Of a stretch of DNA of 35,334 nt, positions 1,253-20,837 are shown piece after piece. A model generated the notes under the pieces. The model saw nothing but the letters and a program-made list of their open reading frames with translations, was not told the origin of the DNA and ran no database searches. The translations under genes and the position numbers were made by a program. The stretch is from Spirochaetaceae bacterium (lineage in GTDB: Bacteria > Spirochaetota > Spirochaetia > B11-G9). The stretch lies in the NCBI GenBank assembly GCA_030638735.1, contig DAOWEB010000415.1, forward strand, positions 1 to 35,334, in the 5' to 3' direction. Each line of letters starts with the position of its first letter. Position 1 is the first letter of the stretch.

Positions 1253-3307
1253 CTATATCTTAAACTTACTAACTATCTCTGTAAGTTGTTCAGAAAGCTT
1301 TGACAGAGCTTCTGCACTGGTAGAAACCTGTGTACTTGCTTCTGATATAGCTCCTGCAGAACTTGAGACCTCTGCTATTTCTCTTGCTATCTCCTGTGAA
1401 ACAGTAGAATTCTGTCCTGACCGTTCAGTAGCATCCTGAACTGCCAAAGAAGCATGCCCGATATTATCTGTAATGTCTTTTGTTGTGACAGCCTGTTCCT
1501 CAACAGCTGCAACTATGGTTGTAACATAGTCATTTACCTGCTGAACAATCTCGGTAATTTTATTTATATCAGTTATAGAATTTGTTGTTGATGTCTGGAT
1601 CCGTTCAATTTTAATTCGTATATCTTCTGTTGCTTCTGCTGTCTGCTTGGCAAGATCTTTAATTTCGCTGGCTACAACTGCAAAACCTTTTCCAGCAGTA
1701 CCTGCCCTGGCTGCTTCGATAGTAGCATTAAGAGCAAGAAGATTTGTCTGGTCGGAAATACTTGTTATTGTTTCTGTTACCTTTCCAATATCATTAGCAG
1801 ATTCCCCAAGATCTTTCATCAATATACTAACTTCTTTGGACTGTTTAACTGCTTCTGAAGTAATATTCATTGCTTTCTCAGTATTCTGAACAATCTGGGA
1901 AATTGTAGCGGACATCTCTTCGGATGCAGATGCAACTCCATTCAAATTTTCTGAAGACTGATTCATACCATCAGATACAGAAGATGAATTAGCGTTTAGC
2001 TCCTCTGCAGCAGCGGCAACAGTACCGGCCTTTTCAGTAGAAGCTGATGCTTCAGAAGCAAGACCTACAGAAACTTCAAGAAGCTCGGAACTTGAAAGAG
2101 TTAAATCATTGGAACCTTCAACAATTGAAGAAATCACTTCTTTGAGATTTTTTGTCATATCAATAAAAGAGAGAGTAAGGTCTCCTAATTCATCATTTGC
2201 AACAACCGCAGTTCCAGTAGATGAATCGGTAAAATTTGCAGTTAAATCACCCTTTGCCACTTCACTTACAACTTTTTTCAATTTTTCAATTGGTTTTGTG
2301 ACTCTCAAAACTACATATATACTCAATATCACGAGAATAATAACTATAAGTACAACAAATACTATAAACATTATCATTCCAACAACTGCAGAAGATCTGT
2401 GTTCAGCAACAGCTATGTCAAAATCTGAAGCCAGTTTTAATTCAATATCAAGCATTAAGTTGATTTTAGTTGTCATCTGGGAAAACCAGTAAGCGGGGTC
2501 TATAGAACCAAGGCTTTCCTGCCCGACTCTTGCAAAAGCAATATCTCGCATCTTTTGAACTTCATTTACAGAAGAACCAGATAATGTATTACTGAAATAG
2601 GCTTTTTGTTCATCATTGGCATCAGCCATAAATACTTCGAAATAAACATCCTGATTTACAACTAAATTATTAAAAATTTTAAAAGTATCAAAGCCCATTT
2701 TATCTATTGCAAAAGCATTACTTAATACTGCACGTTCAATACCTGCACGCTCTTTTCCCCTTAGGAAATTGTTATATGCATTCAGCTGTGTTCTTATTTC
2801 AACTGTTGGAACATTTACAGCAATAAAACGTATAACCTCAAGTAAAAGCGAATTTTGATTAGAATAAAACCCAATGGCATCAGGTGTAGTTATAGTTAAA
2901 GAAGTTACTTTTTTTCGAATACTCTCATACTCATCAGCATGTTTCATGGAAACTACCAGTCTCTCTCTGAATTCATTGCCAAATTTATCCAGATCTGTCT
3001 TACTTATATATTCTTTAAGATCTATAAGTTTGGAATTTGTAAGTTTTCTCTGTCCTGGAAGTCCATCAGGGCCTGCAAATGAGGAACCTTTACTACCTAT
3101 ATACCCAGCAGTCATACCCCTCTCTTTTTGAGTCTCATGAATAAAAGCACTCATTTTCACTGCAAGAGTTGTTAATACTTCAGAATCATTTACATCTTTA
3201 AGTAGTGTTACTTTTTCATTTATACCGACTAACGAAAAATAAAGCACAGCAATAAATGGAATTATTGCCAGTAATATTATTTTTGCCTTGATTGTAAACC
3301 TAACCAT
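1253..3307 (-). CDS. Methyl-accepting chemotaxis protein with NIT-type (nitrate/nitrite sensing) sensor domain, HAMP and MCP signalling domain
   Basis: ORF 684 aa; N-terminal [20 protein letters not shown] (NIT-like), second TM, HAMP, and MCP hairpin tip [50 protein letters not shown]. Confidence 0.92.
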
Positions 3308-3337
3308 TGTTTACTCCCTTTGTGTATTTAAATTTAA

Positions 3338-3366
3338 TGACATAATATATTTTTAATTTTATGTCA
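3338..3366. promoter_or_regulatory. 8-bp inverted repeat in the upstream region of the NIT-MCP gene
   Basis: TGACATAA (3338-3345) and TTATGTCA (3359-3366), exact reverse complements, 13-nt spacer. Confidence 0.45.
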
Positions 3367-3377
3367 CTATACAAAAC

Positions 3378-3440
3378 CTGAAACTATTGTTTCAGCCATC
3401 TGAAATTACTATTTCAGTTCTTCTTAAACTACTGTTTAAG
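3378..3440. repeat. Three tandem palindromes with 7-bp arms and 4-nt centres
   Basis: CTGAAAC-TATT-GTTTCAG (3378-3395), CTGAAAT-TACT-ATTTCAG (3400-3417), CTTAAAC-TACT-GTTTAAG (3423-3440). Confidence 0.9.
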
Positions 3441-4280
3441 CTGATAAAAAATTGAACGTAAATACCTTTTCGACTCAAATGATGGACATACTGTAGCAAT
3501 ACTTTCAGTACTCCCAATTATAAGAGCTCCGTCAGGTTTTAAAAGTTTTGAAATTCTGTTAAATAATATTTTCTTTTTTTCCTCAGGGAAATAGATAGCA
3601 ACATTCCTGCAAAAAATAATATCAAACTTACCCAAATGACTGAAATCATCCATTAGATTCAACTTCTTAAAAGCTGCCAAAGATCTTATTTCATCATCGA
3701 TTTTCCATTTATCATTCTCTTTATTAAAGTACTTATTTAATTTTACCGAAGGAAGACCTCTTTCAATATCTACAAGGCTATAATATCCATAACTTGCCTT
3801 TGTTACAGCCTCATCAGAAATATCAGTGCCGAGAATAGACACATTATGTCTGGTTGTATCTCCTAAAAGTTCTTTTAGAACTATACCTATACTGTACACT
3901 TCCTGACCTGTGGAACATGCTGCACTCCAGATTTTTAATGTCAGAGGAGATTTATTTATATCCGATCCTGGAATTCTTTTATCTATTAAATCAGGAATAA
4001 TTTTATGCTGCAGAAGATCAAAGGGTGCACTGTCCCGAAAGAAATGGGTTTCATTTGTTGTCATAGCATCCAGAAGCTGCTGTTCAAGTTTTTTTGAAAA
4101 ATCCGCTTTAATTTTTCTATACAGATCTGTAAAGTTATCTGTACCTGTCTCTCTCAGCATTTTTACGAGCCGGGTTTCCAGAAGGTATCCCTTACTTGCG
4201 TTAAGATGTATCCCGGAAAGAGTACTTATATAATCTGAGAATAATGTAAGCTCTGCGGATGTAATCTTAACAACTGCCAC
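3429..4280 (-). CDS. cheR: CheR-type chemotaxis protein methyltransferase
   Basis: ORF 283 aa; MTTNETHFFRD, KIWSAACSTGQEVYSI, FDIIFCRNVAIYFPEEKK motifs; located directly after cheB. Confidence 0.93.
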   Translation of the reverse strand: MAVVKITSAELTLFSDYISTLSGIHLNASKGYLLETRLVKMLRETGTDNFTDLYRKIKADFSKKLEQQLLDAMTTNETHFFRDSAPFDLLQHKIIPDLIDKRIPGSDINKSPLTLKIWSAACSTGQEVYSIGIVLKELLGDTTRHNVSILGTDISDEAVTKASYGYYSLVDIERGLPSVKLNKYFNKENDKWKIDDEIRSLAAFKKLNLMDDFSHLGKFDIIFCRNVAIYFPEEKKKILFNRISKLLKPDGALIIGSTESIATVCPSFESKRYLRSIFYQLKQ

Positions 4281-5423
4281 CTATACAACCACCATTCGTA
4301 CTGATTTTTCAATGGCGGACGATATCATATCCAGAGGTAGAATAATATCAGAAACACCAGCTTTTACAACTTCCATTGGCATTCCATAAACTACACAACT
4401 TGCCTTATCCTGAGTTATAGAGACACCACCATGCCGTTTTATCAGTCTCATACCAGTTGTACCATCATTACCCATACCTGTCATAATAACGGCGGTAATT
4501 TTCCCGGGGAAAAGAGTGGAAACAGATCTGAACATATAGTCTACAGCCGGTTTACAATTATTTTCAGGAGGATCGTCGGTTATGCGTATAATATGATCAT
4601 TTCCACTGGCTGAAACAGAAATTTTCATCTGCTTTCCACCAGGAGCTATATATGCAGTTCCAGGGATAAGTTTTTCCCCTTCTTCCGCTTCCTTAACATT
4701 AATTTTACATTTTGCATTAAGGCTCTTTGCAAGAGACTGGGTAAAAAGAGGAGGCATATGCTGTACTATTAATATAGGAACACCAATTCCTGCAGAAATT
4801 TTTGGGAGCATCTCACCCAGAGCTGCAGGCCCGCCTGTAGAAATACCAATAACTACAATTTCCGGTTTTTTAAAATTTGGCATTTTTTTTAAAAAACTGG
4901 CAATTTCAAATATTGAGGAAGGAGTAAAGACAGGAGCTCTGGAGCCTGAAATATTTATTGCTTCCTTTTTTAAAACAGGTATAATTTTTTTATTACTGTT
5001 TTTTTCACGACCATCTTCATTTCTATTTCTTTCTTTCCATGCCTTGATAATAGGAGCCAGAGTATCTCTAATTTCTGCTCTGTTTTCTGCTACAGTACCA
5101 CTATCAGGTTTTGTAATAAAATCAAACGCTCCAAGCTGGAGTGCCTTTATTGTTAAATCTCCACCCTTAACTGTTACAGCACTTAATACAATAACACCTA
5201 CATCCAGATGTTCCTTTTTAATTGATTCAAGAACTTCAATACCATTCATTACGGGCATTTCTATATCCAGAGTAATAATATCCGGTTTTAACTCTTCAAT
5301 CTTTTGTAAAGCAATTTTTCCATTACTGGCACTTCCTACAATTTCAACTCCGGATATCTCCAGAAGGGAATCACTTATTATCTTTCTAAACACTATTGTG
5401 TCATCAACAACCAGAACCCTCAT
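4281..5423 (-). CDS. cheB: CheB protein-glutamate methylesterase (REC + methylesterase)
   Basis: ORF 380 aa; REC DIITLDIEMPVMNGIEVL; catalytic motifs GISTGGPAAL, VQHMPPLFTQSLA, MTGMGNDGTTGM. Confidence 0.95.
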   Translation of the reverse strand: MRVLVVDDTIVFRKIISDSLLEISGVEIVGSASNGKIALQKIEELKPDIITLDIEMPVMNGIEVLESIKKEHLDVGVIVLSAVTVKGGDLTIKALQLGAFDFITKPDSGTVAENRAEIRDTLAPIIKAWKERNRNEDGREKNSNKKIIPVLKKEAINISGSRAPVFTPSSIFEIASFLKKMPNFKKPEIVVIGISTGGPAALGEMLPKISAGIGVPILIVQHMPPLFTQSLAKSLNAKCKINVKEAEEGEKLIPGTAYIAPGGKQMKISVSASGNDHIIRITDDPPENNCKPAVDYMFRSVSTLFPGKITAVIMTGMGNDGTTGMRLIKRHGGVSITQDKASCVVYGMPMEVVKAGVSDIILPLDMISSAIEKSVRMVVV

Positions 5424-15215: not shown

Positions 15216-15228
15216 TATACCTGTGGTT

Positions 15229-15262
15229 GCATAGGCGAGCAGCAACGAAGTTGCGACCAGCC
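15229..15262. repeat. Small hairpin repeat, copy B
   Basis: gcaTAGGCgagcaGCAACgaaGTTGCgaccaGCC; compare copy A at 5898-5932. Confidence 0.8.
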
Positions 15263-15317
15263 TACCCTTACAAACAGTGGTATTAGACCCATTTTTTAAT
15301 CACTGAAAACAGGAGTA

Positions 15318-16326: not shown

Positions 16327-16368
16327 ACGATTGATAAATCGTACAGACGCCCTATAGGGCGTCTCTAC
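16327..16368. repeat. Two adjacent palindromes in the predicted 5' leader
   Basis: ACGATT-GATA-AATCGT (16327-16342) and perfect 20-nt palindrome AGACGCCCTATAGGGCGTCT (16345-16364) within GTAC...CTAC. Confidence 0.85.
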
Positions 16369-19656: not shown

Positions 19657-19731
19657 TTGCTCTGAAGTAAAAATCACTTTTTGTCCATAATAAATAGTAC
19701 TTTTATCTGTTATAGTAAAGGGAGAAGGAAA

Positions 19732-20052
19732 ATGATGATTACCCAGGAAGATTTATCTCAGATTACCGAACATATCCACGGTCATTTTAACCAATGGATA
19801 AGTAACGCTCAAATATCTGCAAATACCCACAACTATGAAATGGAACACTCAGAAAGACTTGTTCGTGTCGAAGAAAGTATTAAAAATTCAATTGAGCTGA
19901 CTCAGCAGGGTTTTAAACTTATGGAAAAAAGTTTTGAACACGTAGAAACAAGATTATCGGAATTATCCAGAAGAATTTTTCAATTTATGATATGGTCGTT
20001 CGGGTTTACTACTACAGCTGCCGGAGTAATAATTACTGTATTAAAATTTTAA
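19732..20052 (+). CDS. Small coiled-coil protein with C-terminal TM segment
   Basis: In-frame ATG at 19732 with SD gggagaagg; RVEESIKNSIELTQQGFKLMEKSFEHVETRLSELSRRIFQFMIWSFGFTTTAAGVIITVLKF. Confidence 0.65.
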   Translation: MMITQEDLSQITEHIHGHFNQWISNAQISANTHNYEMEHSERLVRVEESIKNSIELTQQGFKLMEKSFEHVETRLSELSRRIFQFMIWSFGFTTTAAGVIITVLKF

Positions 20053-20731: not shown

Positions 20732-20837
20732 GTACAGACGTAGACTGCCTTTGTGGAGTAGAGATGTTGCCTTCCTTTTGTAGAGTACAGACGTAGCATG
20801 CCTTTGTGGAGTACAGACGTAGCATGCTACGTCTCTA
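20732..20837. repeat. Degenerate tandem array of GTACAGACGTAG-type palindromic repeat units
   Basis: gtacagacgtagactgcctttgtggagta / gagatgttgccttccttttgtagagta / cagacgtagcatgcctttgtggagta / gtacagacgtagcatgctacgtctctac. Confidence 0.85.

Follow-up and report, generated by a model that had tools for sequence, protein, structure and literature searches.

Stabilised upstream segments of Escherichia coli operons end, in 26 of 34 cases, at intercistronic hairpins that carry no U-tract and sometimes stand several in a row (PMC5927463). Clusters of hairpins near stop codons, likewise free of poly-U, have been reported as terminators in a study whose genomes included Treponema denticola and Leptospira (PMC8355165), and tandem hairpins are also known from the ANTAR dual-hairpin RNA, whose hexanucleotide loops have an A as their first base and a G as their fourth (PMC3369931). 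The window analysed here, a stretch of 35,334 bp from the 4.3-Mb genome of an uncultured Spirochaetia genus (assembly 90% complete), contains a row of short hairpins between cheR and a chemoreceptor (MCP) gene. It resembles the hairpins of malE-malF, puf and papB-papA (PMC5927463), which also lie between operon genes near the upstream stop codon, have no U-tract and are sometimes serial, and it shows the feature by which intercistronic mRNA-stabilising or processing hairpins are recognised, namely stable hairpins without a U-tract between co-directional genes, the last copy being followed by a partial T-run; unlike them, it is made of short, AT-rich, near-identical tandem copies, in a spirochaete, and is known from sequence only. 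With the terminator clusters (PMC8355165) it shares several short hairpins less than 15 nt apart beside a stop codon and independence of poly-U, and its geometry fits, but the array sits inside a co-directional che gene run.

We read the cheR-MCP gap as an intercistronic RNA boundary element of simple, closely spaced hairpins, to which we assign a probability of about one half. An ANTAR target RNA was also considered because tandem hairpins and a NIT-domain gene recall NasR: the ANTAR RNAs of NasR and EutV (PMC3369931) are likewise tandem small hairpins, and the MCP downstream has a NIT domain, as does NasR. This candidate was rejected on its loop, which is ANUA rather than an AnnGnn hexaloop (the A1/G4 hexaloop is present in 0 of 6 copies); nor does a terminator overlap the array. 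A search for ANTAR proteins found none in six genomes of the genus, and the control genomes likewise gave none.

The hairpin array and its surroundings

Table 1. Positions of the array, its flanking genes and the elements in the gap.
Feature	Position	Strand	Sequence (gene sense) or annotation
cheR methyltransferase gene	3429..4280	-	Pfam PF01739/PF03705
Hairpin copy 1	3423..3440	-	CTTAAAC-AGTA-GTTTAAG
Hairpin copy 2	3400..3417	-	CTGAAAT-AGTA-ATTTCAG
Hairpin copy 3	3378..3395	-	CTGAAAC-AATA-GTTTCAG, then GTTTTGTATAG
GTTTTGTATAG element abutting the last hairpin	3367..3377	-	(C/T)TTATATATAG in G001 and G005 (alignment)
Fourth hairpin	3338..3366	-	TGACATAAAATT...ATTATGTCA
NIT-HAMP-MCP chemoreceptor gene	1253..3307	-	Pfam PF08376 (NIT), PF00672 (HAMP), PF00015 (MCPsignal)

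The three 18-bp inverted repeats, perfect hairpins with 7-bp arms and 4-nt loops, were found where the sequence-only reading had placed them, with centres 22 and 23 bp apart and 71-133 bp upstream of the MCP ATG (3307), and one of them, as that reading had said, contains the cheR stop codon (TAG, 3429-3431). In gene sense the array begins in the last cheR codons (...Q-L-K-Q-TAG), so that the 5′ arm of copy 1 is the coding end (L-K-Q) and the stop codon falls in its loop and 3′ arm; the linkers AAGAA and ATGG separate the copies, and the array ends 70 bp before the ATG, which is preceded by the Shine-Dalgarno sequence GGGAG. The whole gap between the two genes is 121 bp. Because the copies are near-identical to each other, they are duplicates and not coincidences. 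Perfect hairpins with arms of 7 bp or more and loops of 3-6 nt occur at 0.57 per kb (0.47-Mb sample of the source genome), a density from which we estimate that independent hairpins would give well under one close triplet per genome even with similarity not demanded. Among 0.90 Mb sampled out of the 4.3 Mb, the cheR-MCP array was the only perfect, closely spaced triplet, the 49 others all having imperfect arms and unrelated sequences, and three hairpins fell within 60 bp in 1 of 100 dinucleotide shuffles of the window, mutual likeness again not being demanded.

A genome-wide search for the motif, proposed in the sequence-only reading, showed no random scatter: there are three occurrences in the source assembly, all at this junction. 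A relaxed 18-mer pattern matched nowhere but at this junction in the source genome and in two sister genomes (G001 and G005), with no recurrence upstream of other genes as a multi-copy regulon operator would show. Because the motif is unique to this junction it is neither a dispersed repeat nor a regulon motif; matches with two mismatches were single and only moderately above the reversed control. No Rfam covariance model matched positions 3308-3440, even with E values of up to 5 allowed. The RNA folding z-score is -4.8 for the 63-bp array and -4.4 for the whole gap, which ranks the junction fourth of 74 co-directional gaps in a sample of the source genome; the junction is thus strongly structured, yet other structured gaps exist in the genome. 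Two properties of the array count against a boundary element, namely that the plus strand folds equally well, as expected for any perfect inverted repeat, and that the stems are short and AT-rich.

Copy number, constraint and pairing in relatives

The orthologous cheR-MCP junction is present in two of the five other genomes of the genus, the sister Spirochaetia genomes G001 and G005. By alignment, the source genome has three copies, G001 two (copies 1 and 2) and G005 one (copy 1). Copy 1 has perfect arms in G001 and one T.T mismatch in G005; copy 2 is orthologous in G001, with one arm mismatch, and is missing from G005, while copy 3 is found in the source genome only. A cheR nucleotide tree placed G005 outside the source genome and G001 (support 0.897, near-star), which would fit growth from one copy to two and then three, with loss in G005 also possible. 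The gap is structured in both relatives (folding z of -2.3 in G001 and -2.8 in G005). Against a boundary element we count the varying copy number, the failure of copy 1 to form in the minimum-energy fold of G005, and the fact that the comparison of junctions covers three genomes only. More distantly, 22 cheR orthologues of about 49-62% identity, mostly from deltaproteobacteria, were checked; one (L061) is followed by a hairpin row, which is GC-rich, of CGCTC type and belongs to another family. In the two that were read downstream (L048 and L049), cheR is followed by a response-regulator-like gene and not by an MCP gene.

Between the source genome and G001, 2 of 29 non-coding array sites differ, compared with a proportion of 0.48-0.49 at four-fold sites, and the array is therefore under constraint; the binomial probability of 2/29 at the four-fold rate (P < 1e-5) is optimistic, as it comes from one genome pair and from an alignment whose anchor was the conserved part. 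In a pairing table of the six copies from the three genomes, 40 of 42 pair cells hold standard pairs. Double changes occurred at two pairs (columns 3/16 and 7/12), the same two paired arm substitutions that had been described between the copies, whereas two mismatches, in copy 2 of G001 and copy 1 of G005, are uncompensated, so that two of the three hairpins of the relatives carry one, a further point against a boundary element. Random placement of four arm changes would restore two pairs with a probability of about 0.002, a simple figure that ignores template switching. Template switching at quasipalindromes, known from E. coli (PMC7202029), can make paired changes without selection, and the compensatory argument is thus suggestive rather than decisive. 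The proposal that dyad symmetry is under selection stands in part: conservation of the arms far exceeds what the neutral rate would leave, but the proposal is qualified by the arm changes, two compensated and two not, and by the possibility that template-switch repair paired changes unselected.

A proposed boundary element and its alternatives

Between the array and the MCP gene lies a fourth hairpin that is unrelated in sequence to the tandem duplicates. G001 (CCAGATATAATATCTGG) and G005 (GGTATAAATTAAATTATACC) have hairpins of unrelated sequence at a comparable position, in all three genomes between a conserved TATAG, which the last array copy adjoins, and the Shine-Dalgarno sequence. Their shuffle p values are 0.025, 0.010 and 0.013 (Fisher 3e-4), somewhat optimistic figures since the segments were picked after the hairpins had been seen. 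A structure that recurs without its sequence points to RNA and not to a DNA-binding site. A structured leader or intercistronic RNA, the former suggested from the sequence, is supported indirectly by the folding z-scores and by these similarly placed hairpins. We rejected the idea that transcription starts after TATAG with a 5′ hairpin, as in the source genome and in G005 the expected start falls after the beginning of the hairpin. G005 additionally has a hairpin CTAAAC-AATAA-GTTTAG abutting the MCP Shine-Dalgarno sequence (L047, about 4890-4907); it resembles the array unit and lies beyond the unrelated hairpin, on its other side.

As a boundary element, the gap would be transcribed as part of the che-operon transcript and would fold into a row of 7-bp stem-loops from the cheR stop codon on. 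These hairpins would most likely shield the upstream che message from exonucleases at its 3′ end and/or terminate partially, two actions between which sequence alone cannot decide, and the MCP segment would be left with a structured 5′ end. MCP expression would thus differ in level from that of the upstream che genes, uncoupling the receptor from the operon. Three of the hairpins are recent tandem duplicates, and the copy number of the array changes through short duplications. If this holds, the junction would be a small, clean case of a che operon that sets its receptor-to-enzyme ratio by a hairpin row, and the change in copy number between sister species would offer a natural series of 1, 2 and 3 for dose effects on mRNA ends. 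The array most likely belongs to an ordinary class of intercistronic RNA elements, and it leaves the general picture unchanged.

An operator array in the DNA, with the 18-bp palindromes serving as binding sites of a dimeric regulator over an MCP promoter that has its -35 in the last hairpin, is in our view unlikely. Its half-sites would lie about one helical turn apart and its copies about two, which the spacing of 22-23 bp suits; the letters of arms and loop are themselves conserved beyond pairing, TATAG abuts the last copy in each genome, the GTTTTGTATAG element being possibly a weak -10 region, and the source genome has one weak promoter match (CTGAAA-18-TATAGT, 9/12). However, shuffles match as often, and no promoter match was found at the corresponding place in G001 or G005, where in the latter a single imperfect palindrome is left. 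The cooperative operator array of the sequence-only reading finds no support in the confinement of the motif to this one place in the genome, in the window proteins scanned, which revealed no helix-turn-helix gene or DNA-binding output domain, or in the two and one copies in the sisters. Pairing that is mostly, though not strictly, kept and downstream hairpins that are unrelated in sequence favour selection for RNA structure over a sequence-specific operator.

A terminator cluster, by which che-operon transcription would end after cheR and the MCP gene would have its own promoter, appears quite improbable. The first hairpin on the stop codon, the stems of 7 and the gaps under 15 match the published clusters (PMC8355165), and copy 3 with the following GTTTTGT gives one weak terminator-like match against 0.1 expected. 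No such site was found in G001 or G005, the partial T-run after copy 3 is not a true U-tract, and no convincing conserved MCP promoter is seen; the GC-rich stem with a U-tract, conserved in orthologues, that marks an intrinsic terminator is represented by this weak site in the source genome only.

No better a prospect is a mutational by-product, that is, a quasipalindrome that arose by chance at the cheR stop, was amplified by slippage, had its arms kept matched by template switching and has no function. The copy numbers of 1, 2 and 3 across three species, the paired changes between copies alongside mismatches in the relatives, and the E. coli precedent (PMC7202029) would all be expected of such a process, but template switching alone would not keep a sequence this long, with so few array differences from G001 despite heavily diverged neutral sites, and further downstream the three genomes have independent hairpins in comparable places. 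Finally, the fixed A, U and A of the ANUA tetraloop (position 2 being free in all six copies) could be read by a dedicated RNA-binding protein, with a copy number that changes rapidly between species tuning chemoreceptor expression, a reading that we regard as very remote.

Other repeats and features of the window

A predicted small protein of 123 aa without a Pfam match is encoded at 19681-20052. A long hairpin of GGAGACGGGAG-type repeats (1120-1250) separates the MCP gene from the gene next to it, and pieces of this hairpin turn up at 11 further genomic sites, of which contig C317 carries several; a similar purine-rich hairpin is found at L158:12302-12427. A palindromic repeat at 15225-15263, part of a GTAGGGGTAGG...CCTACCC hairpin, has 44 matching places in the source genome including itself, some of them in tandem about 42 bp apart (for instance C419:6078-6159 and C396:9781-9862), and forms a REP-like dispersed family. 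Short palindromes that start with AGACG and end with CGTCT are present at 16345-16364 and 20815-20834, and a similar AGACGTAGC...GCTACGTCT structure at L155:10788-10946 hints at another dispersed palindromic family.
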